NCBI GenBank assembly: GCA_030710605.1
Contig: CP092870.1
Coordinates: 54,511,921-54,575,920 of the forward strand
Direction: 5' to 3'
Origin: Cordylochernes scorpioides
Taxonomy: Eukaryota > Arthropoda > Arachnida > Pseudoscorpiones > Chernetidae
Length of the DNA stretch: 64,000 nucleotides
Shown here: positions 11,046-63,840 of the stretch, piece by piece
Layout of the letters: each line of letters opens with the position of its first letter
Numbering within the stretch: position 1 is the stretch's first letter
Notes under the pieces: generated by a model
Databases searched by the model: none
What the model was told of the DNA's origin: nothing
The model's input: the letters and a program-made list of their open reading frames with translations, nothing else
Position numbers and translations under genes: made by a program

Positions 11046-11960
11046 TCAAAAATCTTTTGTTCCATTTAGGTATCTGAAATTCCTTTTATATACCTCTCCA
11101 GTGGATTTTCTTAGATCATTAGAGTATTGGGATAGATGGCTCAAAATAAAACTTATATCAGTTCTGGTTCCAGTTGATAAGTACATCAACGAACCTAGGG
11201 CTTCTTGATATTCTTTTTGGGATATAGTTTTCTCATTTTGATAATCATCAAAGTTTTCACTAAGGCTTCCTGGTGTTTTAACAGGTTTACTATCCAACAT
11301 GCTGAAGTTTCCTAAAATATTCTTCATATATTCCTTTTGAGATAACAAAATCCTATGGTCTTTCCTTGTTATCTTTATTCCAAGAAAATGGTCTTGAATT
11401 TTCAGTTCTTTAATGATAAAATGGTCTGATAACTTTTTAAATAATTCTTCAATCATATCATTTGAAATTCCTGCCACTGAAATGTCATCAACATAAACTC
11501 CTAAATATATGTAATGATTTTCATTTTTCCACATAAAAATGCATGGGTGTGTTTTTAATTGGTTGATGTTCAATGATTACAAAAATGTGCATAGCTCATT
11601 GTACCAGCATCTTCCAGATTGTGGAAGTCCATAAATGCTTTTATATATATAGTATACCTTGTGTGTGTGTTGTTCTTTTGGAATCCAGGTGGTGGTTCCA
11701 TATAAATAGGCTTATCCAAGTGTCCATTTAAATATGCTGATTTGACATCATACATTTTTATTTTTAGGTTAATCTTTCCAGCTATTGTTTGAAGTGTTCT
11801 TAAAGATGCGTGTCTCATAACAGGACTGAAGTTTTCTTCAAAGTCAATTCCTTGAGTTTGATTGTAGCCGTTTGCGACTAATCTTGCTTTAAAGGTTGGT
11901 TCAAGAATTTCCTCTTGGTGTTCGATGGTGAATACCCATTTGCTTTTTATTACTTTTTAG
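11046..11960 (-). pseudogene. Copia reverse transcriptase
   Basis: Two frames cover the domain. The upstream piece (11818-11570) has IKMYDVKSAYLNGHLDKPI with the first catalytic Asp and the Copia-typical YMEPPPGF. The downstream piece (11573-11046) has YLGVYVDDISVAG, the YVDD active site, then FLGIKI and the LMYLSTGTRTDISF stretch. A frame change near 11570 and further breaks up to 11960 make it inactive. The enzyme would copy element RNA into DNA in virus-like particles. Confidence 0.9.
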
Positions 11961-12192
11961 TCTTTAGGCCTATCAACAATATCACATCATGGATATTCAT
12001 GGAGTTGATTTCCTCAATCATGACTAGGTGCCATAGATTTTTGTTTTTTGAATTTATTGCTTCTTCATAGGTTTTAGGAGTTTCTTGAGTACTGTATGCA
12101 ATAAAGTCCTCATATCCTTTGGGCATTTTTGTCAGTCTTTGAGGTCTAATTATTGCATATGAAGTTGATGGTTCAATTTCTATTTCCCTATT

Positions 12193-12790
12193 TTAATTTT
12201 GCTTAAATTCAGTGTGCGACTCATCATCTGTATCACTTGAAACTGGAATTTCTTCATTTACATCTTGATTATTGTTTTCATAGTTTGATTCTTCATTTTG
12301 GTCAAAAGCAAAATATTGGATATTTTCATATTCTAAAGTATTTTGTTTTGATTCTGGAATACCTAATTTAGTTTCATCAATAATTTGATTAAGTTCCTCA
12401 TTACTTGAGAATTCAATGGTAAACAAGTCATTTGTGAAGTTACCGAAACAAATTAGTTTAGATTCTTTAGAGTAAATGAATGCTCCTTTATCATTAAAAG
12501 TAACTTCATTGCTATATTGGACAAATTTTGGTACTGAGAGTAAATTTGTTCTTAAATCAGGTACAAAGAGTACTTCTTCCAGTTTTATATTGTTTTTTTC
12601 TTCATTTTGAATCATGTGCTTCATTATAACAGTTCCTTTGGCTATTGATTTTATGCTTCTTCCATTTTCAGCTACATTGATGGTTCTTTTTTCAAAATTT
12701 CATTTTTTTTAAGTGTGATCTGTCATTAGTCATGTGTGAAGTACATGCAGAATCCAATTGCCAAATTAGAGTATTAGAAAATTTTTTGAT
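12193..12790 (-). pseudogene. Copia protease and pre-integrase remnant
   Basis: WQLDSACTSHMTND near 12770-12720 corresponds to the Copia aspartic protease, with Ala-Cys in place of the usual Gly-Ala after DS. LFVPDLRTNLLSVPKF (12570-12525) is the usual follow-on. Instead of an HHCC zinc motif and DDE integrase, the protein goes straight to an acidic Asn/Glu-rich stretch ending EFKQN at 12193, normally found after integrase. Hence an internal deletion. Confidence 0.75.
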
Positions 12791-13560
12791 TAGAAGATTG
12801 ACCTTGAATCTCTGATAAATTAGCTTCTTCTTTATTCTTTTGTGAAAATGGAATACCTTTTGATCTGTTGTTTGTATATCTATTTTAAGTCTTCTTGTTT
12901 TTTGGATTGTGCCAACATTGGTTTTGTAGATGACCAGATTTATGGCATATATGACATGTTTTAAATGTTTTCTTCTCTTGTGCTTTGAAGGCATTGTTTC
13001 ATTTATGGTCACGTTTCTTTTCAAAGTCAAGAAGGGTTTGTCTTAAATTTCCTATAGAAATATTTCTATTCATAATTAGTGCTGTAGAAATACTTTTGTA
13101 GTTATCTGGGAGACCTTCAATTATGTATCTGACTAATTCTCTTTCAGATATTAATTTCCCTAGCCGAGATATTTGACTACTTAATCCTTGAGCTCTTGTT
13201 ATATAATTTTCAATATTTTCATTGTGCTGTTTCTTCAATTTTGTTATAGGTTTAAAAATAAATTCATTTCCTTGTCTTCTGTTTAACCTTCAAATCTTTC
13301 TTTTAATGATTTCCAAATTTGTCTGGCATTCTTTATTCCTTTGTAGATAATTGCAATCTCAGGAGACATATGTAAGATCATATATCCAAGGGCTTCCTTG
13401 TTTTTCCTGCTCCAATCTTTATACATTTTAATAAATGATGGATCATTTTCATTTTTAGTTGGCATTTGATTTTCAATCACTTCAAAAGGTTGCTTGGCTT
13501 CAAGTAGCGTTTCAAGCCTTATACTCCAAATAGCATAATTTCTATCATTTAAGGTCAATT
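12791..13560 (-). pseudogene. Copia gag with zinc knuckle
   Basis: The coding starts at MTLNDRNYAIWSIRLETLL (13558), the typical Copia gag N-terminus with the W in NYAIW, and continues through WKSLKERFEG, then in a second frame MKKQHNENIENYITRAQGLS and LVRYIIEGLPDNYKSI (13238-13100). A third frame near 12965-12905 holds CHICHKSGHLQNQC, a CCHC nucleocapsid knuckle for RNA binding. Two frameshifts break it. Confidence 0.8.
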
Positions 13561-13672
13561 TTCGTGTTGTTAAATACGTCCATATCGAAGCTTTAATTTA
13601 TTTATTTTCAACTTTCTAAAAATATATTCAAATATCATGAAGTTAAGCCTGTTAGAACTCACTTATTTTTAA

Positions 13673-14461: not shown

Positions 14462-14601
14462 AGTATTTTAAAAAGCCAAATGTATTTAACAGTTCTGAGT
14501 TTTGGCCTTTATCAGTACAAGATGACTTAGATTTCATAGCATTCAACGAGAGCAGTGATATTGCTCATTTTTTATCAACAACTTCATTTTATGTAAAATG
14601 A
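14462..14601 (+). pseudogene. Unidentified coding-like fragment
   Basis: An open stretch of about 45 residues with balanced composition: it contains NVFNSSEFWPLSVQDDLDF and ends HFLSTTSFYVK before a stop at 14599-14601. The family is not recognised. It is cut off on the right by the tRNA-like repeat unit. The low-complexity bias of neighbouring AT-rich frames is absent, which is the only reason to list it. Confidence 0.3.
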
Positions 14602-14890
14602 CATTTGAAAATTATTCCGCATGTGTTTCTTTTTGACGAAATATCGAAATTTATTTTAAGGAGAAATAACGATCATTTCGATCCTTAGGGATGAGGTATG
14701 AAAGAATGAATTGTGAAGAGTAATGATGAACGGAAAAATAAAGTGTCCAGGGATGGGAATCGAACCCACAGTGTTCCGTTTACCTGGCAGATGCCATGTC
14801 CACTAGGTTACCGTGGGCATATTTTTCCGTTCGTAAATAATATATAAAGTAATATAGCAATAAGCCGCATTATATTGTATCATAAATAAC
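14590..14890 (-). repeat. Single diverged unit of the tRNA cassette family
   Basis: It has the block order of the array unit: TGTAAAATGACATTTGAAAAT, the RGAAATAAC block, GATGAGGTATG, GAACGGAAAAATA, tRNA-like core, TATTTTTCCGTTC, then AAGCCGCATTATATTGTAT. Divergence from the array units is high, so this looks like an older, unamplified member. Confidence 0.75.
14746..14817 (-). tRNA. Diverged tRNA-Thr-like pseudogene
   Basis: The minus strand retains TGTGGGTTCGATTCCC (B box) and CTAGTGGACATGGC (A box region). The acceptor stem no longer pairs: the 5' strand reads CCCACGG against CCCTGGA. An anticodon loop CAGGTAA gives GGT by position. Not expected to be functional. Confidence 0.6.
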
Positions 14891-15425: not shown

Positions 15426-15756
15426 TAGCTCCTCCCTATGAAAACTAAACCACAGCTAGAAATTATTATAGATACTGACATGGATCTGACGTGCTTCTGC
15501 CAAGAATTCCATCGAAGTCTTGTACTTTTTTTTCTAGTACCTTTGCTTCCATTTTCTTGCGGCATGAAGAGCGGAATTGTCATCGTATTGTCGTCTATAG
15601 GGACATCGTCATCTCGGAAGTAAGTCCTGGCTTTGACACGGCGGTGGAATCCTGGTGTCAGTCTCCGAAAGTGTAAATCACAGCACCCATGGCCTCTATG
15701 TCTTTTCGGCGATCTTCAGTTTGTCTTCCCTAATCTACCCAGCATCCCTACCAAAA

Positions 15757-16344: not shown

Positions 16345-16608
16345 GATTAATCAAGCCCTCCCAATATATATTTTTTCATCTCAGTAAGGACAGAAAAGAT
16401 TGCATTGTGTATAAAAAAAATTTATGCGCAAATCTTTTCATTTTATATACATAGATCATATAAAACGAAAATTAAAATTATACCGCGAATGTTTCTTTTA
16501 AAAATAGAAATTTATTTTCAAAGAGAAATAGCGACATTTCTAACTTTGAGGATGAGGTATGGAAAGGTGATAAATGAAGAGTAATGGAGAACGGAAAAAT
16601 AAAAAGTG

Positions 16609-16680
16609 TCCAGGGGCGGGAATCGAACCCACACCCTTCTGCTTACCGGGCAGGTGCCTTGTCCACTCGGCTACCCTGGA
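16609..16680 (-). tRNA. tRNA-Thr-like, array copy 1
   Basis: Reference description for all copies, read on its own strand: acceptor TCCAGGG with CCCTGGA; T8, A9; D stem GCC/GGC; A box TAGCCGAGTGG; anticodon stem CTGC/GCAG with loop CCGGTAA, giving anticodon GGT; variable AGGGT; T stem GTGGG/CCCGC; B box GGTTCGATTCC. Position 33 is C, not the near-universal U, and eukaryotes normally use AGT for this box, so it may be a tRNA-derived repeat rather than a working tRNA. Similarity to eukaryotic tRNA-Thr in the anticodon and T arms supports the origin. Confidence 0.7.
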
Positions 16681-16897
16681 CGTATTTTTCCGTTCATAAC
16701 TTATATTTAAAGTAACATTTAAAATACAATATAACGCGGCTGATGATTGTAAAACGAAAATTAAAATTATACCGCGAATGTTTCTTTTAAAAATAGAAAT
16801 TTATTTTCAAAGAGAAATAGCGACATTTCTAACTTTGAGGATGAGGTATGGAAAGGTGATAAATGAAGAGTGATGGAGAACGGAAAAATAAAAAGTG

Positions 16898-16969
16898 TCC
16901 AGGGGCGGGAATCGAACCCACACCCTTCTGCTTACCGGGCAGGTGCCTTGTCCACTCGGCTACCCTGGA
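16898..16969 (-). tRNA. tRNA-Thr-like, array copy 2
   Basis: Core identical to copy 1. Its unit has GAGTGATGG instead of GAGTAATGG next to the inverted repeat. Confidence 0.7.
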
Positions 16970-17186
16970 CGTATTTTTCCGTTCATAACTTATATTTAAA
17001 GTAACATTTAAAATACAATATAACGCGGCTGATGATTGTAAAACGAAAATTAAAATTATACCGCGAATGTTTCTTTTAAAAATAGAAATTTATTTTCAAA
17101 GAGAAATAGCGACATTTCTAACTTTGAGGATGAGGTATGGAAAGGTGATAAATGAAGAGTAATGGAGAACGGAAAAATAAAAAGTG

Positions 17187-17258
17187 TCCAGGGGCGGGAA
17201 TCGAACCCACACCCTTCTGCTTACCGGGCAGGTGCCTTGTCCACTCGGCTACCCTGGA
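17187..17258 (-). tRNA. tRNA-Thr-like, array copy 3
   Basis: Core and unit as copy 1. Confidence 0.7.
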
Positions 17259-17475
17259 CGTATTTTTCCGTTCATAACTTATATTTAAAGTAACATTTAA
17301 AATACAATATAACGCGGCTGATGATTGTAAAACGAAAATTAAAATTATACCGCGAATGTTTCTTTTAAAAATAGAAATTTATTTTCAAAGAGAAATAGCG
17401 ACATTTCTAACTTTGAGGATGAGGTATGGAAAGGTGATAAATGAAGAGTGATGGAGAACGGAAAAATAAAAAGTG

Positions 17476-17547
17476 TCCAGGGGCGGGAATCGAACCCACA
17501 CCCTTCTGCTTACCGGGCAGGTGCCTTGTCCACTCGGCTACCCTGGA
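17476..17547 (-). tRNA. tRNA-Thr-like, array copy 4
   Basis: Shares the GAGTGATGG variant with copy 2, two units away. Confidence 0.7.
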
Positions 17548-17764
17548 CGTATTTTTCCGTTCATAACTTATATTTAAAGTAACATTTAAAATACAATATA
17601 ACGCGGCTGATGATTGTAAAACGAAAATTAAAATTATACCGCGAATGTTTCTTTTAAAAATAGAAATTTATTTTCAAAGAGAAATAGCGACATTTCTAAC
17701 TTTGAGGATGAGGTATGGAAAGGTGATAAATGAAGAGTAATGGAGAACGGAAAAATAAAAAGTG

Positions 17765-17836
17765 TCCAGGGGCGGGAATCGAACCCACACCCTTCTGCTT
17801 ACCGGGCAGGTGCCTTGTCCACTCGGCTACCCTGGA
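17765..17836 (-). tRNA. tRNA-Thr-like, array copy 5
   Basis: Core and unit as copy 1. Confidence 0.7.
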
Positions 17837-18053
17837 CGTATTTTTCCGTTCATAACTTATATTTAAAGTAACATTTAAAATACAATATAACGCGGCTGAT
17901 GATTGTAAAACGAAAATTAAAATTATACCGCGAATGTTTCTTTTAAAAATAGAAATTTATTTTCAAAGAGAAATAGCGACATTTCTAACTTTGAGGATGA
18001 GGTATGGAAAGGTGATAAATGAAGAGTAATGGAGAACGGAAAAATAAAAAGTG

Positions 18054-18125
18054 TCCAGGGGCGGGAATCGAACCCACACCCTTCTGCTTACCGGGCAGGT
18101 GCCTTGTCCACTCGGCTACCCTGGA
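18054..18125 (-). tRNA. tRNA-Thr-like, array copy 6
   Basis: Core and unit as copy 1. Confidence 0.7.
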
Positions 18126-18343
18126 CGTATTTTTCCGTTCATAACTTATATTTAAAGTAACATTTAAAATACAATATAACGCGGCTGATGATTGTAAAAC
18201 GAAAATTAAAATTATACCGCGAATGTTTCTTTTAAAAATAGAAATTTATTTTCAAAGAGAAATAGCGACATTTCTAACTTTGAGGATGAGGTATGGAAAG
18301 GTGATAAATGAAGAGTAATGGAGAACGGAAAAAATAAAAAGTG

Positions 18344-18415
18344 TCCAGGGGCGGGAATCGAACCCACACCCTTCTGCTTACCGGGCAGGTGCCTTGTCCA
18401 CTCGGCTACCCTGGA
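18344..18415 (-). tRNA. tRNA-Thr-like, array copy 7
   Basis: One additional A in the A-run beside the inverted repeat makes the spacing from copy 6 290 bp. Confidence 0.7.
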
Positions 18416-18632
18416 CGTATTTTTCCGTTCATAACTTATATTTAAAGTAACATTTAAAATACAATATAACGCGGCTGATGATTGTAAAACGAAAATTAAA
18501 ATTATACCGCGAATGTTTCTTTTAAAAATAGAAATTTATTTTCAAAGAGAAATAGCGACATTTCTAACTTTGAGGATGAGGTATGGAAAGGTGATAAATG
18601 AAGAGTAATGGAGAACGGAAAAATAAAAAGTG

Positions 18633-18704
18633 TCCAGGGGCGGGAATCGAACCCACACCCTTCTGCTTACCGGGCAGGTGCCTTGTCCACTCGGCTACCC
18701 TGGA
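18633..18704 (-). tRNA. tRNA-Thr-like, array copy 8
   Basis: Core and unit as copy 1. Confidence 0.7.
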
Positions 18705-18921
18705 CGTATTTTTCCGTTCATAACTTATATTTAAAGTAACATTTAAAATACAATATAACGCGGCTGATGATTGTAAAACGAAAATTAAAATTATACCGCG
18801 AATGTTTCTTTTAAAAATAGAAATTTATTTTCAAAGAGAAATAGCGACATTTCTAACTTTGAGGATGAGGTATGGAAAGGTGATAAATGAAGAGTAATGG
18901 AGAACGGAAAAATAAAAAGTG

Positions 18922-18993
18922 TCCAGGGGCGGGAATCGAACCCACACCCTTCTGCTTACCGGGCAGGTGCCTTGTCCACTCGGCTACCCTGGA
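18922..18993 (-). tRNA. tRNA-Thr-like, array copy 9, innermost minus copy
   Basis: Last copy before the turn; 291 bp separate it from the first plus copy. Confidence 0.7.
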
Positions 18994-19284
18994 CGTATTT
19001 TTCCGTTCATAACTTATATTTAAAGTAACATTTAAAATACAATATAACGCGGCTGATGATTGTAAAACGAAAATTATATTTCCATTCTCCATTACTCTTC
19101 ATTTATCACCTTTCCATACCTCATCCTCAAAGTTAGAAATGTCGCTATTTCTCTTTGAAAATAAATTTCTATTTTTAAAAGAAACATTCGCGTTATAATT
19201 TTAATTTTCGTTTTACAATCATCAGCCGCGTTATATTGTATTTTAAATGTTACTTTAAATATAAGTTATGAACGGAAAAATACG

Positions 19285-19356
19285 TCCAGGGTAGCCGAGT
19301 GGACAAGGCACCTGCCCGGTAAGCAGAAGGGTGTGGGTTCGATTCCCGCCCCTGGA
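19285..19356 (+). tRNA. tRNA-Thr-like, array copy 10, first plus copy
   Basis: The body before it reads CATTCGCGTTATAATT where other plus units have CGCGGTATAATT. Confidence 0.7.
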
Positions 19357-19573
19357 CACTTTTTATTTTTCCGTTCTCCATTACTCTTCATTTATCACCT
19401 TTCCATACCTCATCCTCAAAGTTAGAAATGTCGCTATTTCTCTTTGAAAATAAATTTCTATTTTTAAAAGAAACATTCGCGGTATAATTTTAATTTTCGT
19501 TTTACAATCATCAGCCGCGTTATATTGTATTTTAAATGTTACTTTATATATAAGTTATGAACGGAAAAATACG

Positions 19574-19645
19574 TCCAGGGTAGCCGAGTGGACAAGGCAC
19601 CTGCCCGGTAAGCAGAAGGGTGTGGGTTCGATTCCCGCCCCTGGA
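19574..19645 (+). tRNA. tRNA-Thr-like, array copy 11
   Basis: Preceded by TTTATATATAAG and followed by TTATCGCC, two variants it shares with copy 14. Confidence 0.7.
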
Positions 19646-19862
19646 CACTTTTTATTTTTCCGTTCTCCATTACTCTTCATTTATCGCCTTTCCATACCTC
19701 ATCCTCAAAGTTAGAAATGTCGCTATTTCTCTTTGAAAATAAATTTCTATTTTTAAAAGAAACATTCGCGGTATAATTTTAATTTTCGTTTTACAATCAT
19801 CAGCCGCGTTATATTGTATTTTAGATGTTACTTTAAATATAAGTTATGAGCGGAAAAATACG

Positions 19863-19934
19863 TCCAGGGTAGCCGAGTGGACAAGGCACCTGCCCGGTAA
19901 GCAGAAGGGTGTGGGTTCGATTCCCGCCCCTGGA
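19863..19934 (+). tRNA. tRNA-Thr-like, array copy 12
   Basis: The upstream inverted repeat is altered to GAGCGGAAAAATA, and the body has TTTTAGATGTT. Both changes are unique to this unit. Confidence 0.7.
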
Positions 19935-20151
19935 CACTTTTTATTTTTCCGTTCTCCATTACTCTTCATTTATCACCTTTCCATACCTCATCCTCAAAGT
20001 TAGAAATGTCGCTATTTCTCTTTGAAAATAAATTTCTATTTTTAAAAGAAACATTCGCGGTATAATTTTAATTTTCGTTTTACAATCATCAGCCGCGTTA
20101 TATTGTAATTTAAATGTTACTTTAAATATAAGTTATGAACGGAAAAATACG

Positions 20152-20223
20152 TCCAGGGTAGCCGAGTGGACAAGGCACCTGCCCGGTAAGCAGAAGGGTG
20201 TGGGTTCGATTCCCGCCCCTGGA
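20152..20223 (+). tRNA. tRNA-Thr-like, array copy 13
   Basis: Unit has ATTGTAATTTAAATG instead of ATTGTATTTTAAATG. Confidence 0.7.
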
Positions 20224-20440
20224 CACTTTTTATTTTTCCGTTCTCCATTACTCTTCATTTATCACCTTTCCATACCTCATCCTCAAAGTTAGAAATGTCG
20301 CTATTTCTCTTTGAAAATAAATTTCTATTTTTAAAAGAAACATTCGCGGTATAATTTTAATTTTCGTTTTACAATCATCAGCCGCGTTATATTGTATTTT
20401 AAATGTTACTTTATATATAAGTTATGAACGGAAAAATACG

Positions 20441-20512
20441 TCCAGGGTAGCCGAGTGGACAAGGCACCTGCCCGGTAAGCAGAAGGGTGTGGGTTCGATT
20501 CCCGCCCCTGGA
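20441..20512 (+). tRNA. tRNA-Thr-like, array copy 14
   Basis: Carries the same pair of flanking variants as copy 11, exactly three units (867 bp) away. Confidence 0.7.
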
Positions 20513-20729
20513 CACTTTTTATTTTTCCGTTCTCCATTACTCTTCATTTATCGCCTTTCCATACCTCATCCTCAAAGTTAGAAATGTCGCTATTTCTCTT
20601 TGAAAATAAATTTCTATTTTTAAAAGAAACATTCGCGGTATAATTTTAATTTTCGTTTTACAATCATCAGCCGCGTTATATTGTATTTTAAATGTTACTT
20701 TAAATATAAGTTATGAACGGAAAAATACG

Positions 20730-20801
20730 TCCAGGGTAGCAGAGTGGACAAGGCACCTGCCCGGTAAGCAGAAGGGTGTGGGTTCGATTCCCGCCCCTGG
20801 A
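20730..20801 (+). tRNA. tRNA-Thr-like, array copy 15
   Basis: The only core with a base change: D stem GCCG is GCAG, which weakens the D stem but leaves the A box consensus intact. Confidence 0.65.
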
Positions 20802-21018
20802 CACTTTTTATTTTTCCGTTCTCCATTACTCTTCATTTATCACCTTTCCATACCTCATCCTCAAAGTTAGAAATGTCGCTATTTCTCTTTGAAAATAAAT
20901 TTCTATTTTTAAAAGAAACATTCGCGGTATAATTTTAATTTTCGTTTTACAATCATCAGCCGCGTTATATTGTATTTTAAATGTTACTTTAAATATAAGT
21001 TATGAACGGAAAAATACG

Positions 21019-21090
21019 TCCAGGGTAGCCGAGTGGACAAGGCACCTGCCCGGTAAGCAGAAGGGTGTGGGTTCGATTCCCGCCCCTGGA
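21019..21090 (+). tRNA. tRNA-Thr-like, array copy 16
   Basis: Last copy. The body after it ends at 21269 and is followed by the right 13 bp direct repeat. Confidence 0.7.
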
Positions 21091-21341
21091 CACTTTTTAT
21101 TTTTCCGTTCTCCATTACTCTTCATTTATCACCTTTCCATACCTCATCCTCAAAGTTAGAAATGTCGCTATTTCTCTTTGAAAATAAATTTCTATTTTTA
21201 AAAGAAACATTCGCGGTATAATTTTAATTTTCGTTTTACAATCATCAGCCGCGTTTTATTGTATTTTAAACATAGATCATATATTAAAATATATTTTTTT
21301 GTGTCATTTTATTATACATTCAGGAACAAAACACTGTTTTT

Positions 21342-21720
21342 TATGCCTCTTGATTCATTATATAAAAATAAAAATATCATATATTGAAAATAAATATATT
21401 TTTTTTATGAGAGAAGTTTCCATTATGTATCAAAGAAACATTCGTGTTTAAATCCTTGCATTTATATATATATAGATATTATATAGATATAGATGGCGCT
21501 TTGTGTTGATATGATCTATGTATTTTACAATATTAAATCAAGAGAATTATAATCTATGGACAATATAATTGTCGCCGGTCGTCTGTTTTTATGCCTCTTG
21601 ATTCATTATATTTGAGGAAAAAGATCATATATTCATAATAAATATATTTTTGACAATAGAAGTTTGCATTTTGTATCAAAGAAAAATTCGTGGTTAAATC
21701 CTTACATTTTATATATATAG
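21342..21720. repeat. Two direct copies of a repeat flanking the array
   Basis: TATGCCTCTTGATTCATTATA occurs at about 21341 and 21588, and both are followed by AATAAATATATTTTT, TATCAAAGAAA and TTAAATCCTT. The left flank of the array (16390-16450) resembles the end of this unit, so the array may have inserted in one such repeat. Confidence 0.5.
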
Positions 21721-21989
21721 ATACATCTCTGAATGCACTATTGTTAACGAGGAACGGAATAAGATCTTAATAAAAAGTATACAAGTCTACGTGAACCCAG
21801 TTAAGCTAATCAGAATAATGTCCGAGAAAAAATATATAGCGATATAATTGTTATCTTTAATAAAGCGTTAGAGAAAAAAAATTACAGAACAATTTCCTCC
21901 CATAGTTAATTTTTATAGTTATGTTGAATAATTTTATTTCCTTTTCATTTTCCCTTCTCTCCTTTTTTTTTTCATTTTCTCCATTAAAT

Positions 21990-22624: not shown

Positions 22625-22995
22625 GTCTATAGAGACTAAGTTATAATACAATATAATGCGGCATATGATTGTAAAATGACATTTGAAAATTACCCGCATT
22701 TGTTTCTTTTAAACGAAAAATCGAAATTTATCTTTAAGGAGAAGTAAAAATTATTTCTAACCTTAGGGATGAAGTATGAAAGGATGAATTGTGAAGAGTA
22801 ATGATAAACGGAAAAATAAAGTGTCAGGGATGGGACACTGAACACTTTTTCCGTTTATCATTACTCTTCACAATTCATCCTTTCATACTTCATCCCTAAG
22901 GTTAGAAATAATCGATATTTCTCTTTAAAGAAAAATTTCGATTTTTCGTTCAAAAGAAACACATGCGGGTAATTTTCAAATGTCGTTTTACAAAG
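22625..22995. repeat. Palindromic tRNA-cassette relative without the tRNA
   Basis: Both arms carry the cassette body (GAAACACATGCGG..., GGGATGAAGTATGAAAGGATG, AATTGTGAAGAGTAATG) in opposite orientation. At the centre, 22810-22850, ACGGAAAAATAAAGTGTC is followed by AGGGATGGGACACTGAACAC and TTTTTCCGTTT. Only edges of the tRNA-like core remain. Confidence 0.75.
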
Positions 22996-23602: not shown

Positions 23603-23844
23603 AGATATATATGTAAGTAATTCTAATATAGCACAATAGTCTGATAGATTTCATGCTTCTATAATAATAAAATAAAAATAAAAAATATACATTTATTATA
23701 TTTTTATTTAATTTTATTTTGAATTAGAGCGCTATGACCCCTAGGGACAATTGCATTACAAAGGTGAACTAAACATTTAAAGAGGAAAGAAAGAAAGATA
23801 TTTGGAATATATACAAAAATAGTATGCAAGGTTTATAATACAAT

Positions 23845-24115
23845 ATAATGCGGCTTATGATTGTAAAACGACGTTTGACAAGTTTTACCGCAAATGTTTC
23901 TTTTGAATGAAAACAAAAAAATCGTGAAATATTTGAATGGGGAATTTCCCATCCTTTTATTTTATATACTTTTATTTTCCGTTCATTAGTACTCTTCACA
24001 ATTCATCTTTCATACTTCATCCCTAAGGATAGAAATACTAGTTATTTCTCCTTAAAATAAATTAAGATTTTTCGTTCAAAAGAAACATTTGCGGTAAAAG
24101 TTGTCAAACGTTTTT
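23845..24115. repeat. Palindromic tRNA-cassette relative, second copy
   Basis: Left arm: AATACAATATAATGCGGC, TTGTAAAACGAC, ACCGCAAATGTTTCTTTTGAA. Right arm: TTTTCCGTTCATTAGTACTC, CATACTTCATCCCTAAGGAT, CAAAAGAAACATTTGCGGTA. The left arm is shortened and no tRNA-like core remains. Confidence 0.65.
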
Positions 24116-32582: not shown

Positions 32583-33890
32583 CAAGGTATGTCCCATAAG
32601 TTCCCGGACTGGGTCCATAAAAAAAAGGTAAGATTTTTTTAAAATTTTTGTATTAAAACTTTTCAAAGTAATCCCCCCTTGCTTCAACGCACCAGCGCCA
32701 TCGTTTCTCCCAATTGTCGAAACAGTTTTTATAAGCCTCTTTTAGAATGCTCTTCAATGCTAACGGCGATTTTTCTATTATGTCATCCCTGGTGTCAAAA
32801 TGTCTTCCTTTTAGAACTGCTTTAAGTTTGGGGAACAGGAAAAAGTCATTTGGTGCGATGTCTGGGAAATAGGGTGGTTGAAGTAGGATTTGTGTCCCGT
32901 TTTTCGCCAAAAAGCTAGTCATCAAGTGCGTTGTGTGAGGGTGAGCATTGTCATGGTGTAGGATCCAGCCACCATTAGTCCATTTTTCTGGCCTTTTTTT
33001 TTCGAATCGCTTCCCTTAGACGGCGAAGAATGCCCAAATACATTTCCTTAATAACTGTTTGGCCTGCAGGAAGATACTCGTGATAAACAATGCCCTTGTT
33101 ATCCGAAAAAGCGACCAGCAACACCTTCTTTCTGGATTTTTTGGGTTTAGGCTCACCCTAACCTTTCCACTCGGCAGATTGAGGTTTAGTTTCAGGGTCA
33201 TAGCCATAGACCCATGTCTCGTAGCCTGTGATTATCTTGTCTTTCCATTCAGGATCCGTTCTTGTCATTTCCATCATGTCCTCACAGGTTGCAAGCCGAC
33301 ACAGTTTTTGCTCATTGGTGAGGAATCTTGGGATGAATTTTGCAGGAGTCTTTTTGAGCTTCAAATCTTCGGTTACGATCCTTCCAATCGTTGTTTTAGA
33401 GATGCCTGTGTCTTGCTCTAGCTCCAGCAAAGTGGTTCGAGGATTTTCTTTTATCAAATCGGTGATTATTTGCACATTTTCATCAGTCTTTTGAAATTTT
33501 GGGCGTCCTTGACGAGGATCATCTTCAATGGAAATTCTGTCAACTTTAAATCTAGAATGCCATTCAAAAACAGTTGTTCTCTTTGGGGCGTCATTGGGGA
33601 ATGCTTTATTAAGCATTTCAAAAGTTTCGGTTGCTGATATTTGAAGTTTCACACAAAATTCTATGCAAATCCTCTGCTTCAATTTTTGTTCCATCGTAAA
33701 ATCGCCGCAGCGCTAGGTGTGACCTTTAAATAAATTAGAATAACCTTGGCGCGCGCGCAAGTACCGCCTCGATATTGGTACCACCGTGTAGCCAGATATT
33801 TTTTCTATAATTAACAGTCAAATTCATTTACATTTTTCATTTATTTATTTTTTTATGGACCCAGTCCGGGAACTTATGGGACATACCTTG
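32583..33890 (-). mobile_element. Mariner element, inactive
   Basis: 1308 bp with inverted ends CAAGGTATGTCCCATAAGTT and its inverse at 33871-33890, flanked by TA (32581-32582 and 33891-33892). Removing it and one TA restores the surrounding 58 bp repeat (AAATAAATA + TTCGAACC), so the insertion site is certain. Confidence 0.95.
32653..33694 (-). pseudogene. Mariner transposase with nonsense, frameshift and active-site mutations
   Basis: The start MEQKLKQRICIEFCVKLQIS (33694) opens the paired helix-turn-helix; LEQDTGISKTTIGRI is in the second. The catalytic order is D, D34D. The first site reads ITGYETW, with Tyr for Asp. A TAG follows WKG at 33160 where the family has Gln. One additional A in the run near 33000 shifts the frame before the second site, ILHHDNAHPHT, and the third, PDIAPNDFFLF. 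The C-terminus is YFEKF, full length of about 347 codons. Dead, but only lightly decayed. Confidence 0.95.
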
Positions 33891-34067
33891 TATATTCGAA
33901 CCTAATGTGTGTGATATCAAGAATTAAATAAAATCTTGATACAAAAATTATGTTTGGACCTGATGTGTGTGATCTCAAGAATACAATAAAATCTTGATAT
34001 AAATGAATATGTTTGAACCTGATGTTTGGGATCTCAAGAATTCAATAAAATATTGATACAAATAAAT

Positions 34068-34137
34068 ATTATATAAAAAGGCGTACCTGGATCTGTAAAG
34101 AATTCTTTACAGATCCAGGTACACCCTTTTATATAAT
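34068..34137. repeat. 70 bp near-perfect palindrome
   Basis: Two 35-base arms without a spacer around AATT at 34101-34104. ATTATATAAAAAGG at the left edge is the inverse of the right edge with one or two mismatches. It sits between units of the 58 bp repeat. It may be a snap-back MITE or a mirror of a transcription terminator-like hairpin. Confidence 0.85.
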
Positions 34138-34189: not shown

Positions 34190-35225
34190 ATGTGTGTGAT
34201 CTCAAGAATTCTTAAAAATCTTTTATCATCAGGTTACCCAAAGTCCTTCATCCTGCGACATTTTTATCAAACCGCAGAAAACACCAAATCAATAACTCAA
34301 AAAGCAGAAATTTATATAGCATTATTCATCATCCCATATTCACTTCAATCAGTTTCCATAGCGAGAACACTTAGAAATTATGGTATCAAAACTATGTACA
34401 ATAATTCTCCAAATTTAGGCAATATGATTAGACACCCATTAACAAAGAATCAATCCAACATTCCATTCAATAGAAAAGAAGCCATATACTCCATATCATG
34501 TAATATATCTGTAGTTCTAAATATGTAGGGGAGACTGGGAGAAAAGTTCATAATAGAATAGCCGAACATAATAGGAATATCGTCAATAGTGACCCAAGAT
34601 CTTTAATATTTCAACATATAAAAGAAACCGGCCATACATTTAACTTATCCCAACCCATAGTGCATTATGACAATATCCATAGTAAATACCAAAGACTCTT
34701 AATAGAATCTATGATAACCAAACAACAAAAAAGCATAAACAGATACATAGAAATATCAGAAACATATGAAACAATATTAACAAACACTACCCCTTAGATT
34801 TAAAATAGTCTTCTATATATACACCATAATAGTTCATGAATTTAATAGGTTTAATTTGAGATCACGAGATATCATTAGACCAACGCGTGGCCTCTACCCA
34901 TGCACGTATAATTATAAAAAAAATTGTTTATAACACACAAAGAAGGTAATATACGTTTTCTCCACCTTTCCATATCATTAATAGTTAGATATGTAAACAT
35001 CCTATTACGTAATCTAATATGTAAATATTCTATCTATTATTATTATCATCTTTGTTAGATTAAAACATTATAAAATTAAATATGCAAAAACTTATTTTGT
35101 ATAAAAATAGTATATATACCATCAATTTGTTATCGTGATACTCCTGTGGAAGGACTGACAGTTTCGAAAGCTAGAGAATTAAATTTTAACAAGAAACTTA
35201 GCCCAGGAGCCTTTATTTTCTTTAA
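34190..35225 (+). mobile_element. Penelope-like element, 3' part
   Basis: 5'-truncated copy inside the 58 bp repeat: coding remnant, AT-rich spacer, then the tail CTCCTGTGGAAGGACTGACA ... AACAAGAAACTTAGCCCAG at 35140-35215, after which the 58 bp repeat resumes. Confidence 0.75.
34215..34798 (+). pseudogene. Penelope-like C-terminus with GIY-YIG endonuclease
   Basis: The first frame (34215-34528) has VSIARTLRNYGIKTMYNNSP, which in this family precedes the nuclease. A +1 change near 34515 leads to SKYVGETGRKVHNRIAEHNR, the YIG half of GIY-YIG with the Arg of helix 1, then FQHIKETGHTFNL with the conserved His, and LLIESMITKQQKSINR with the catalytic Glu. It ends TNTTP-stop at 34796-34798. The nuclease nicks target DNA for reverse transcription. 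The reverse transcriptase is not present. Confidence 0.85.
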
Positions 35226-35524
35226 AATACAAATAAATATGTTTGAACCCAATGTATGTGATCTCAAAAATTCAATAAATATTGATACAAATAAATATGT
35301 TTGAATGCGATGAGTGTGATCTCAAGAATTCGATAAAATCTTGATACAAATAAATATGTTTGAACCTGATATGGGTGATCTCAAGAATTCAATAAAAATA
35401 TATTGATACAAATAAATATATTTGAACCCAATGTGTGTGTTCTCAAGAATTAAATAAAAAATCTAGAAACAAATAAATATGAACCTGATATGGGTGATCT
35501 CAAGAATTCAATACAATCTAGATA

Positions 35525-35540
35525 CACACACACACACACA
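35525..35540. repeat. (AC)n microsatellite inside the 58 bp repeat
   Basis: A longer (AC)n lies at 35598-35621, at the same position in the next unit, so it was copied with the unit. Confidence 0.8.
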
Positions 35541-35842
35541 AATAAATATGTTTGAATGTAATGAGTGTGATCTCAAGAATTCAATACAATCTAGATACAC
35601 ACACACACACACACACACACAAATAAATATGTTTGAATGTAATGAGTGTGATCTCAAGAATTCAATAAAATCTTGATACAAATGAATATATTTGAACCTG
35701 AAGTGTGTAATCTCAAGAATTCAATAAAATCTTGATACAAATAAATATGTTTGAATGTGATGAGTGTGATCTCAAGAATTAAAAAAAAATCTTGATATAG
35801 ATACATTTTTCTGAACGTGATAATCTCAATAAATTAAATCAA

Positions 35843-39655: not shown

Positions 39656-39694
39656 ACGATTAGATATATTAGGAGGGCCTTGATCATCAGTAGT

Positions 39695-39745
39695 GAATCC
39701 TCCCGGCGGTTACGTCAGTTTAATCTCTACCAGACTAATAATTCA
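39695..39745 (+). repeat. One end of the MITE at 16199-16344
   Basis: AGTGAATCCTCCCGGCGGTT and GTTTAATCTCTACCAGAC match that element's end. Confidence 0.55.
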
Positions 39746-39788: not shown

Positions 39789-41400
39789 TTGGAATGGACG
39801 TCTTCAACAAGGAATTCTGACCTTATAACGATGGTCAGCTTAACCAGAACATGCAGAGGGATTTTCATAGAGTGGTTTGAGAGATTCACCGAGAAGAACC
39901 GGGATTGTAAGTCCTGTAACCGTTCTATGATAGAGAAGGCATCTGGGATGAAAAACGGATGGCTCTATTGGAGCAGTAGTAGTGGGAAAGCAAAATGTAG
40001 CTGGATAGCAAGCGGCGAAGACAAACTGGAACGAAAACGGGTGCTCCAAAGGAGGCAGATCGTAAAGAGCCAGCCGGAGAGCGATATCCACAGAATGATA
40101 CCCTAAAGTACTTTGAAGGAAATATGCTAAGGCAGGAATCGGCAAACTTTTGAGTCGGAAGAGTCACAAATAACAATTTGCAAAATTTCAAAGTTTTTAA
40201 AGAGAAACAACATTTTTTCTTGCCAACAATAAATAGCCCTTTCATAAATAATATTTGCTTATGGAACTATTTTAAGAGCGGCAGCTTCACATCCAAAGAG
40301 CGGCATGTGCCTCGCGAGCCGTAGTTTGCCGACCTCTGGGCTAGGGTTACCTGAAAGAAGGTACGGTAGAAGAGCCTCGTGGAGCAAGAATTCGACGATT
40401 TCCCCCGCGATGAAGTCCTCAAAACTCTTGAGGAGTTTTCAGGTCACGCTTTTCAAGCCAACCGCTTTTAATTGTGTCAAGCTGCGGATTGAATTTTTTC
40501 ACATCAGTCAGAGAGATATCTACTCGATGAAGCTAAAATGGCGGTGTAGCTCATTGGTAGAACATTCCACTCCAGATCGAAAGGTCAATGGTTCAATTAC
40601 TCGATGAAGCTGGTCAGCCTTCCCCAGGATGATGCCTTCCGTAGCTCCCTCTAGGAATACAGCGATGTCCTGCAGCCGCAGCTATAACACGCAAGGCACT
40701 CGCCAGCTCAGGGAGTAATGGGAAGTCTATCTTGAGTATGATGCGCAGGAACTGATGACTGTGGCAACTTGAACTTCGTCTTCGAAGTGTGAAAAGGAGA
40801 GGAACTTGATATCTTCAATTATATCCCTCTTTATTTTACCATTTAATTATAAAAACTCCAAGGAATATGTCTCCAATCTTCCTAATGTTTCACTAAGAAA
40901 TGCCTCTGCTCTTTTAACGAATGACGCTAATCGAAAAAGAGCGAAGACAAATGGCACTGATGGTGATGGGGGAATCCATTACTTGGAGACAGATGGCAGT
41001 GTGGTCCGAGCAACAGTATTTGAGGCTCAGTAGTGGGTGACGCGTATCAAGAGCCTCAATGGTATTAGGACTTGATACAAACATGCAGCAACAACACGGC
41101 TTCCGCAAATGACAACCTTATTAGGCTTGTGAGGAATCTTAGATGGCGGTTATGTCGAAGAGGACGGTTGCCTCTAGGAGCTCCGAGAAGGGTTCAACGG
41201 CTCCAGACTCGATGTCGCTCGAAGACTCCTCGGATATGTTGATATCACCGAGAATTGACGCATCTTCTCTAAAGACCATTTTCCGCGATGATCTGCAGTT
41301 GAAGATGCCGTTATTCAGGAGTATGAGGTAGATTACAGATGATGACGTGGGTCTCGAGTCCACGGATATTGACGCTGGAAGTGGCAACCTTGCCTGATTA
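39789..41400. other. GC-richer decayed stretch, origin unknown
   Basis: It contains fragments of open frames on both strands with rich composition, such as SCNRSMIEKASGMKNGW (plus, 39915) and FREDASILGDINISEESSSD (minus, 41230-41290). Nothing is long enough to assign. GC content is above the neighbourhood, which suggests an old retroelement or gene remnant. Confidence 0.35.
40535..40597 (+). tRNA. Retroposed tRNA-Trp-like fragment with target duplication
   Basis: TGTAGCTCATTGGTAGAACA is a canonical A box/D arm. The anticodon loop CTCCAGA gives CCA (Trp), and GGTTCAAT is the start of the T loop. The tRNA stops there, missing the T stem 3' side and acceptor 3' side. TACTCGATGAAGCT lies directly on both sides (40521-40534 and 40598-40611), a perfect 14 bp target duplication. 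A truncated tRNA was therefore inserted as DNA, most simply by LINE-type machinery. Confidence 0.75.
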
Positions 41401-41930: not shown

Positions 41931-42154
41931 CAGCCTGAAAACCAAAGTGTGATAATACTGTTTATAATCCTTTGAACATATACAGCTCTATTACTCTGCT
42001 AAACATGCTTGTCAAGGTACACTCATGGACAGAACTTTGAAAAGTTCTACCTTTTATAATAATTATCTAGATTCAAACAATAACTCTGAAATATACTTGA
42101 TACACAGTGACCTTTATTGAAGACACACGTGATAAACAAGTGTAAAAAATATTT

Positions 42155-42335
42155 CCTATTCCCATCCCTGAGAACTTTATTTTCCCGTTCATTTTTACTC
42201 TTCACAATTCATCTTTTCATACCTCATCCCTAAGAATAGAAATAGTCGTTATTTCTCCTTTAAAAATATATCACGATATTTCGTTTAAAAGAAACATTTG
42301 CAGTAAAATTTCAAACGTCATTTTACAAAGATTTA
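42155..42335 (+). repeat. Half of a tRNA cassette, no tRNA
   Basis: TTTTCCCGTTCATTTTTACTC, CATACCTCATCCCTAAGAAT, TTTAAAAGAAACATTTGCAG and CGTCATTTTACAA: one body arm only. Confidence 0.65.
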
Positions 42336-42478
42336 CTCTATCTCTTTTAGAAAATCAGACTATTGAGGACTTTAAATACATTCTATTTCCTCAATATTTG
42401 TTTATAAGTATATTTAAGAAATGTTGACAATGACTAGGAACCGTTTTAAAACTGGTATACAAATTCGATTATATTGGT

Positions 42479-42854
42479 ATTGTCTAAATTCCGATATACA
42501 TGCTAAATGTACAACTTCTTTAAGTTTGTCCATGAGTGTATCTTTCACAGTTATTGTCTCAATCCCGATATACATGCTAAAAGGTACAACCAACTTAAGG
42601 TTTGTTCTTAAGTGTATCTTTCAGAGTTATTGTCTCAATCCCGATACACATACTAAAAGGTACAACCTCCTTAATTTTTGTCTATGATTGTATCCTTCAG
42701 AGTTATTGTCTCAATTCCGATATACATGATAAAAGGTACAACTTCCTCAAGTTTTGTCCATGTGTGTATCTTTCAGAGTTATTGTCTCAATCCCAATATA
42801 CATGCTAAAAGGTACAACCTCCTTTATTTTTGTTCATGAGTTTACTTCAGATCG
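42479..42854 (+). repeat. Minisatellite, five units of 76 bp
   Basis: Units start ATTGTCTCAATCCCGATATA at 42479 (74 bp), 42553, 42629, 42705 and 42781. Units differ at 5-15 positions. 76 is not a multiple of three, so no coding repeat is implied. Confidence 0.9.
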
Positions 42855-63109: not shown

Positions 63110-63840
63110 TTTTTTAGAAAAATAAAATCACCAAGGATAAGTTTCTTATATTTAATGTTTTACGTTTCAAACCTTTGGAGATTAACGACCCTTCTACAGG
63201 AATAAAAAGAAAGAATCTAGATGATCAACCGGTTATATACGAACACATATAATATTAAATATCTGTTTTCTAAATTAGAATTATATAAAATGTTTGAATA
63301 CAATTAGATGTAAATGAAGAGAAATTTATAGTAACTATTATATACAAATGCTAAACAATTAAGATAACTATTGTGATAGGTTAATTTAGTTTACGAAATA
63401 AACTAAGAATTAGTATTATCAATTGAAATATTGTAGACATCTGGAATATCTATATGCCTGTTAATGCTATTATATTCTATGGATAATAATGCTTCAAGAA
63501 TCAGTCTTTTGTATTTACTATTCATATTAGAAAAATATGAAAGGGGGTCTGATAGATTAAAACTATGACCGGTGTTGTTCATGTGGTGTACAATAAAGGA
63601 TTTTGTATTTTCATTATTGCTATTTCTGCGGTGTTCTTCAACTCTGTTTCTAATATATCTACATGTTTCACCTATATATATACTATTACACTGAGAACAT
63701 TTCAATGGGTTTATAGCATATTATATATTAGAAAAATGATAGAAAGGGAAATTATTCTTTGTAATGGGGTTTCTAACGGCTGATTCTATATTAGGGTTGT
63801 TTTTATATATCGTTCTAATACTAAATTCTTTTAGATATCT
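63110..63840 (-). mobile_element. Penelope-like element, 3' part
   Basis: Coding remnant, AT-rich spacer 63210-63400, and tail CCTGTAGAAGGGTCGTTAAT ... AAGAAACTTATCCTTGG at 63200-63120. Same layout as the plus-strand copy at 34190-35225. Confidence 0.75.
63403..63840 (-). pseudogene. Penelope-like C-terminus with GIY-YIG endonuclease
   Basis: CSQCNSIYIGETCRYIRNRV: SIY-YIG corresponds to GIY-YIG, preceded by a C-x2-C pair and with the Arg of helix 1 in IRNRV. VHHMNNTGHSFNL has the conserved His and LILEALLSIEYNSINRH the catalytic Glu. It ends ISIDNTNS-stop at 63403. Upstream, LKEFSIRTIYKNNPNIESAV is in a shifted frame. Best-preserved nuclease in the window; no RT domain to the window end. Confidence 0.85.

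Follow-up and report, generated by a model that had tools for sequence, protein, structure and literature searches.

Sixteen tRNA-Thr-like units arrayed head to head in the pseudoscorpion Cordylochernes scorpioides look like an expanded foldback-type mobile repeat

The genome of the pseudoscorpion Cordylochernes scorpioides carries, in a 64,000-nucleotide stretch of contig CP092870.1 (hereafter the window), an array of sixteen near-identical units, each with a tRNA-Thr-like core, and the question that it raises is whether these are working tRNA genes or the copies of a mobile repeat. Using tRNA, repeat, homology and profile searches together with unit-by-unit comparisons, we found that the sixteen units look like a multiplied mobile repeat, not a cluster of working tRNA genes. 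Quite probably, the array belongs to a dispersed, palindromic (foldback-type) and non-autonomous repeat family of C. scorpioides and has expanded recently. This reading is carried by the dispersal of the repeat, its inverted-pair relatives, the direct repeat that flanks the array, and the near-identity and arm-specific variants of the units.

The array spans positions 16461-21270 and its 289-bp units meet head to head at about 19075. ARAGORN called the sixteen cores, nine on the minus strand (16606-18994) and seven on the plus strand (19284-21093), all as tRNA-Thr(ggt), and Tandem Repeats Finder (TRF) returned a period of 289 in either half of the array, with 98-99% matches. Each unit comprises an end motif of 30 bp (motif X), a 36-bp spacer, the 74-bp tRNA-like core and, beginning with T runs, about 149 bp of downstream arm; the core is bracketed by an inverted repeat of 12-13 bp (GAACGGAAAAAT and its complement). 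Motif X occurs once per unit and, facing outward, also forms one end of the array; TTTTACA is found inside the array, the left end of which reads TTTTATA. At the central turn, the minus arm stops after entering the end of a downstream arm by about 16 bases, and the plus arm begins just past the point where a core would end. An 86-residue stop-to-stop frame is present in 14 of the 16 units, and the one unit frame scanned against Pfam gave no match.

When the units were cut at motif X, seven of the sixteen were identical to the consensus and only seven positions were substituted across them all, besides a 1-base insertion in unit M3 and an altered outermost end in unit M9 (names as in Table 1). 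An alternative cut point, which yields 15 units, gave eight variable positions, including one that falls in the partial unit beside P1. The mean number of substitutions per pair of units, calculated on 13 of the 16 units (M1, M9 and P7 were left out), was 2.4 for pairs in the plus arm, 0.48 for pairs in the minus arm and 1.62 for pairs from different arms. Two variants are shared by P2 and P5, one is shared by M6 and M8, and none is common to both arms, which suggests that blocks of two or three units were duplicated within each arm, probably after the arms had been set up. Variants at 2- and 3-unit spacing in one arm would fit unequal exchange inside the arms. An inverted-repeat alignment of the two halves of the array covers 2198 columns and contains 14 mismatches and a single gap (longest ungapped arms, 1879 nt), so that a stem of just over 2 kb with one bulge is possible. 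The original prediction of 16 units of 289 bp (nine minus, then seven plus, turning near 19075), of almost no divergence and of a possible hairpin of more than 2 kb was thus borne out, and the bounds that it gave (16449 and 21282) coincide with the outer limits of two ACATAGATCATAT copies. The rolling-circle or breakage-fusion copying that it also envisaged found no such backing.

The cores are tRNA-like by score. Against the Rfam family RF00005 (gathering score, 29), 15 of the 16 reached 58.4 bits and the remaining one (20730-20802) reached 50.3, and ARAGORN folds the core into a cloverleaf, as predicted, whose anticodon is GGT. In this cloverleaf, an eighth acceptor pair closes on C73, and the anticodon loop reads CCGGTAA, so that a C occupies position 33 in place of U33 (ARAGORN and Rfam); the Rfam alignment adds one mismatched anticodon-stem pair. 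A nuclear tRNA gene would be expected to have U33 and a 7-bp acceptor with a usual discriminator. U33 is almost invariant in tRNAs, and the Thr ACC codons of animal nuclear genomes are read by an AGT-type anticodon, not by GGT. The minimum-energy fold of the core differs from the cloverleaf. Folded alone, the core is only 0.7-2.0 standard deviations better than shuffles, and the 119-nt stretch made up of the core and its bracketing inverted repeat is 3.5 standard deviations better. Compared with the relative at 14.6 kb described below, the core (60/74 identical positions) is conserved about as well as the 5' flank (30/36) and only slightly better than the arm (111/147). The C33, the 8-bp acceptor with C73, the GGT anticodon and the non-cloverleaf fold together make a working tRNA-Thr gene cluster at this array unlikely. 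Transcription of the core by RNA polymerase III (Pol III) is plausible, since the B box (GGTTCGATTCC) is intact and T runs directly follow the core. These two signals are as originally predicted, whereas the A box stands in part: a strict 12-base A-box pattern had no match, and TAGCCGAGTGG fits a shorter form of the box as it is generally given.

The unit also has relatives outside the array. A blastn comparison of one unit with the rest of the window gave matches in four places, the pieces being 75-86% identical and the lowest E-value 4e-48. A profile that includes these relatives, and whose scores therefore show their extent, the independent evidence being that of blastn, gave 194 bits at 14592-14834, 161 bits at 42146-42327, and two opposed matches within each of 22670-22992 (190 and 168 bits) and 23862-24112 (137 and 36 bits). 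All other profile matches outside the array were below 8 bits, and the reversed window used as a control gave at most 0.7 bits. Two of the four relatives are inverted pairs, i.e. dispersed palindromic copies like those of foldback elements, with arms that match at 94% over 148 nt in the 22.6-kb copy and at 89% over 54 nt in the 23.8-kb copy; both retain just the 3' end of the core. In the 14.6-kb relative, the core has decayed to a score of 26.9 bits, under the Rfam gathering score. Motif X faces outward at one end in three of the four relatives, and the opposite end is TTTTACA in three of the four. A stop of reverse transcriptase at the modified A58 was considered as the cause of the T-arm truncations of three relatives, and was set aside because divergence has blurred the break points too much.

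The array lies between two copies of the 13-bp direct repeat ACATAGATCATAT, a candidate target-site duplication. Exact 13-base direct repeats within 8 bases were met in 75 of 200000 random boundary draws, a total that counts the skipped draws landing in the array. When extended, the flanks of the array match at 16 of 17 positions, and 3 of 1369 random boundary pairs were equally good; those of the 14.6-kb copy match at 14 of 16 positions (6 of 1369 pairs as good).

The surroundings of the insertion site are themselves repetitive. To the right of the array stand two 141-bp direct repeats (86% identity; 21338-21478 and 21586-21723), the tail of which (21660-21722) is 79% like the left flank of the array (16396-16456), so that the array may be embedded in one more copy of this 141-bp repeat. 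Immediately to its left, the segment 16197-16346 is an imperfect inverted repeat with two 56-nt arms, 82% complementary and 38 nt apart; related pieces occur at 39664-39735, and it looks like a small inverted-repeat element.

Copies elsewhere in the genome were detected through predicted proteins. The unit's open frame matched a single protein, and joined sense and antisense pieces, searched over a wider length range, matched five at E<1 among 100 candidates, all from C. scorpioides and on five contigs that differ in length (LAZ67_X000763, 16002773, 14001689, 8001197 and 5003399), of which at most one can carry the window. The matched stretches (18-37 residues) are 86-100% identical to the translated unit, and all five proteins are fitted better by the array unit than by the 14.6-kb relative. 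Three of them match the spacer and the first half of the core, and the other two match the core in antisense. Of the three sense matches, two stop at the GGTAAGC of the anticodon loop, which resembles a splice donor, and the third extends four residues more. These matches are probably repeat sequence taken as exons by a gene predictor and not a gene, and a coding role of the 86-residue unit frames was set aside. LAZ67_X000763 (P0121) shows motif X, spacer and core in the order of the array together with one residue absent from all array units, which implies that an array-type unit exists at least once elsewhere. When the rest of the five proteins was compared with the window (E 0.01), only a 69% match and weak overlaps at the 14.6-kb relative were obtained. 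The former, a protein-level match of 15479-15652 to P0125 outside its tRNA-like stretch, appears to be a second repeat common to the window and the P0125 locus.

From these lines of evidence, we propose that the insertion of an inverted-pair element at this site duplicated about 13 bp of the target, and that unequal exchange or slippage then multiplied the unit separately in each arm, to nine and seven copies. The core would recruit Pol III, and may have served the repeat family as a promoter and not the host as a tRNA. The layout is that of a foldback element, with long inverted arms (2198 columns) that contain internal tandem repeats (9 + 7 units). Between the mobile cassette and the real expanded tRNA locus left open by the original prediction, the former is favored by the relatives in the window, the pieces on five contigs and the target-site-like duplication, and the latter is disfavored by the replaced U33, the 8-bp acceptor with C73 and the core that is degenerate or cut in the relatives. 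It is possible, at a rather low probability, that this non-autonomous foldback element is still active today, that its inverted arms are built of Pol III tRNA-like genes in tandem, and that it occupies several loci, one of them on a contig tagged X. Every added unit would then add a promoter, and the bidirectional arrays would be early satellite DNA with its own Pol III transcription.

Several points weigh against the proposed foldback origin. First, no mobilising protein, be it a transposase or another, could be linked to the repeat family. Second, the flanks of the 22.6-kb copy are borderline (9 of 10 matching; 49 of 1369 random pairs as good), those of the 23.8-kb and 42.1-kb copies show no repeat beyond chance (391 and 726 of 1369, respectively), and the boundaries used in this 1369-pair test were picked by eye. 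Third, a third exact copy of the 13-mer, inverted and unexplained, lies at 21509-21521, and local repeat sequence could thus account in part for the flanking repeat. Fourth, what is known of the genome-wide spread comes solely from stretches that gene prediction chanced to include as exons, and the weakest protein match of the five has an E-value of 0.97, yet 18 of its 18 residues are those of the unit. Fifth, the profile was built from the very relatives that it then finds.

Two known elements of Drosophila, cited here from excerpts of their descriptions, have a comparable organization. Tetris of Drosophila virilis is likewise a foldback element without conserved open reading frames, in the arms of which repeat arrays grow towards satellite DNA, with alleles that differ by one repeat (PMC4079207). 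Its target duplications are of 8-10 bp, as compared to 13-17 and 14-16 bp in the two best cases here (among the five copies, three have flanks of 17, 16 and 10 bp, with 1, 2 and 1 mismatches, respectively, boundaries set by eye), and the excerpted description mentions no tRNA-like unit, whereas the array has one per repeat (PMC4079207). The likeness drawn here between the two is one of structure. Galileo, a foldback element of the P superfamily, likewise has long, internally repetitive inverted repeats with unequal repeat numbers per arm; its two arms have independent repeat dynamics, and its two-arm copies outnumber the nearly complete ones (PMC3573991). Some Galileo copies contain transposase sequence, whereas none was found for the repeat family studied here, and no tRNA-like core is described in the excerpts, unlike in the array units (PMC3573991). 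On the proposed reading, the array would be a foldback-type repeat whose arms bear Pol III promoters and were multiplied in tandem. Among the titles and abstract beginnings covered, with few papers from subscription journals, no account was found of such an array or of a foldback element with tRNA-like units, and the three papers naming C. scorpioides among the best 20 of 92,766 matches do not, by title, deal with its repeats.

The explanation that competes best with a foldback element is a retroposon resembling a short interspersed nuclear element (SINE), moved by the enzyme of a long interspersed nuclear element (LINE) or of a Penelope-like element, with inverted pairs generated via 5' inversion and an array expanded in place. 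It shares with our proposal the dispersed mobile repeat and differs in the mode of movement, and we regard it as a serious though less probable contender. It would account for the flanking repeats (16/17 and 14/16), which are longer than most duplications made by DNA transposases, for the 42.1-kb copy, which has lost its 5' part up to a point inside the core and retains an intact 3' end, and for the 3' end TTTTACA that recurs in three of the four relatives. A tRNA-derived SINE has its tRNA-like head with the internal promoter at its 5' end, whereas here 66 bp of the unit precede the core and T runs directly follow it, so that a Pol III transcript would miss both the upstream part and the arm. 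Furthermore, motif X behaves as a fixed end.

It is improbable that the array is an assembly artefact, i.e. a misjoined repeat made to look inverted or multiplied. The exact period, the near-identity and the inverted arms are typical trouble spots of assemblies, but the variants differ from arm to arm, the partial unit at 19074-19217 makes the turn asymmetric, two separate inverted-pair relatives occur in the window, and a matching direct repeat stands at both borders of the array.

A Pol III-promoter-bearing element with long terminal repeats (LTR) that were tandemly multiplied has slightly less in its favor still. Helenus (TRIMp3), a terminal-repeat retrotransposon in miniature (TRIM), is likewise non-autonomous and has a tRNA-like Pol III unit, predicted in some cases as tRNA-Thr, which inflates tRNA counts (PMC10886601, from excerpts). 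Cassandra of plants is likewise a small-RNA-like Pol III mobile repeat that forms tandem arrays (at least 12 copies) with the look of a gene cluster (PMC7215508, from excerpts). A tRNA-like sequence in tandem direct repeat, with arrays known for both Helenus and Cassandra, speaks for this explanation. However, Helenus is not inverted and has its tRNA-like sequence in LTRs, with a primer-binding site, a polypurine tract and 4-5 bp duplications (PMC10886601), and Cassandra is a 5S-derived TRIM of the LTR type, whereas the array is tRNA-like (PMC7215508). No copy with two direct repeats around an internal domain was seen here, the flanking repeat is far above 4-5 bp and two of the four relatives are inverted pairs, an assessment made on structure and flanks, with no motif search for a primer-binding site or polypurine tract.

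Finally, the least credible explanation, amplification of a functional tRNA-Thr gene cluster by selection for tRNA dosage, is in keeping with the sixteen tRNA calls (15 at 58.4 bits), the B box and the terminators, and is countered by C33, the 8-bp acceptor with C73, the mismatched anticodon-stem pair, the minimum-energy folds that avoid the cloverleaf, a GGT anticodon unusual for nuclear Thr in animals, a core hardly better kept than flank or arm in the 14.6-kb relative, and its reduction to the 3' end in three of the four relatives. The tRNA gene arrays of Entamoeba, with units of up to 5 tRNA genes (PMC2652664), and the human 1q23.3 tRNA repeat, with a 7.3-kb unit of variable copy number (PMC4041453), are tandem too, and the excerpts of both papers describe no dispersed foldback repeat.

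These data show how a mobile repeat with a tRNA-like promoter can become a compact array in which a tRNA finder counts 16 tRNA-Thr genes, and the tRNA counts of arachnids may therefore need filtering for such repeats. The array joins the tandem growth in foldback arms, as in Tetris, to the spread of a Pol III promoter by mobile repeats, as in Helenus and Cassandra. If transcribed, its units would be a bidirectional source of tRNA-like RNA inside an inverted repeat of more than 2 kb.

Table 1. Coordinates of the array, its tRNA-like cores, its flanking repeats and its relatives in the window.
Feature	Position	Strand	Basis
Arm of 9 tandem 289-bp units, cores on minus strand	16461-19076	-	Sequence, TRF, unit comparison
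Arm of partial unit and 7 tandem units, cores on plus strand	19074-21270	+	Sequence, TRF, unit comparison
Central turn	19070-19082		Sequence, inverted-repeat search
Partial innermost plus unit, downstream arm only	19074-19217	+	Profile search
tRNA-like core M9	16606-16681	-	ARAGORN
tRNA-like core M8	16895-16970	-	ARAGORN
tRNA-like core M7	17184-17259	-	ARAGORN
tRNA-like core M6	17473-17548	-	ARAGORN
tRNA-like core M5	17762-17837	-	ARAGORN
tRNA-like core M4	18051-18126	-	ARAGORN
tRNA-like core M3 (unit with 1-base insertion)	18341-18416	-	ARAGORN, unit comparison
tRNA-like core M2	18630-18705	-	ARAGORN
tRNA-like core M1	18919-18994	-	ARAGORN
tRNA-like core P1	19284-19359	+	ARAGORN, Rfam alignment
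tRNA-like core P2	19573-19648	+	ARAGORN
tRNA-like core P3	19862-19937	+	ARAGORN
tRNA-like core P4	20151-20226	+	ARAGORN
tRNA-like core P5	20440-20515	+	ARAGORN
tRNA-like core P6 (one base change, 50.3 bits)	20729-20804	+	ARAGORN, Rfam, unit comparison
tRNA-like core P7	21018-21093	+	ARAGORN
Motif X facing outward at right end of array	21239-21270	-	Profile search
Left flanking direct repeat ACATAGATCATAT, candidate target-site duplication	16449-16461	+	Repeat search
Right flanking direct repeat ACATAGATCATAT	21270-21282	+	Repeat search
Diverged single-unit relative, core 14745-14817 (26.9 bits), X inverted at 5' end	14592-14886	-	blastn, Rfam, profile
Diverged inverted-pair relative, core cut to 3' end, X at left end	22641-22993		blastn, arm alignment, profile
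Diverged partial inverted-pair relative, X at left end	23832-24112		blastn, arm alignment, profile
Diverged relative, 5'-truncated within core	42146-42328	+	blastn, alignment, profile

Two other candidates were rejected. The motifs CTGATGA and CGAAA, which lie close together at the unit junction and recall a hammerhead ribozyme, are not conserved in the relatives, and Rfam (E up to 10, 19000-19700) returned no ribozyme. In a pattern scan of viral contigs for a viral tRNA cluster as the source, only L001 matched (a 3' tRNA part with U33, by eye, adjoining 15 ARAGORN tRNAs), and no further link to the array was found.

Other repeats are present in the window. Right of the truncated 42.1-kb relative, a 76-bp tandem repeat occurs in 4.8 copies (42478-42841). 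An open frame at 40248-40604, ending in CSSLVEHSTPDRKVNGSITR, resembles by eye a translated tRNA-derived repeat, and may represent a second tRNA-derived repeat family. Frames at 34504-34794 and 63406-63720 resemble, by eye, the GIY-YIG end of Penelope-like elements, as the motif is generally known, and Pfam gave no match to them at E 0.001. A mariner-type frame at 33161-33712 has the Pfam Mos1 HTH domain, and the first 54 of the 120 listed matches to it (162 in total) are from C. scorpioides, with up to 96% identity over 97% of the query. Near this frame, tandem repeats of about 59-62 bp with the common core GTGATCTCAAGAATTCAATAAAAT occupy 33891-34069 and 35227-35821. Finally, frames on the minus strand at 11049-13597 resemble the remains of a Copia-type retrotransposon, with RVT_2 detected by Pfam in 11049-11576 and the rest recognized by eye.

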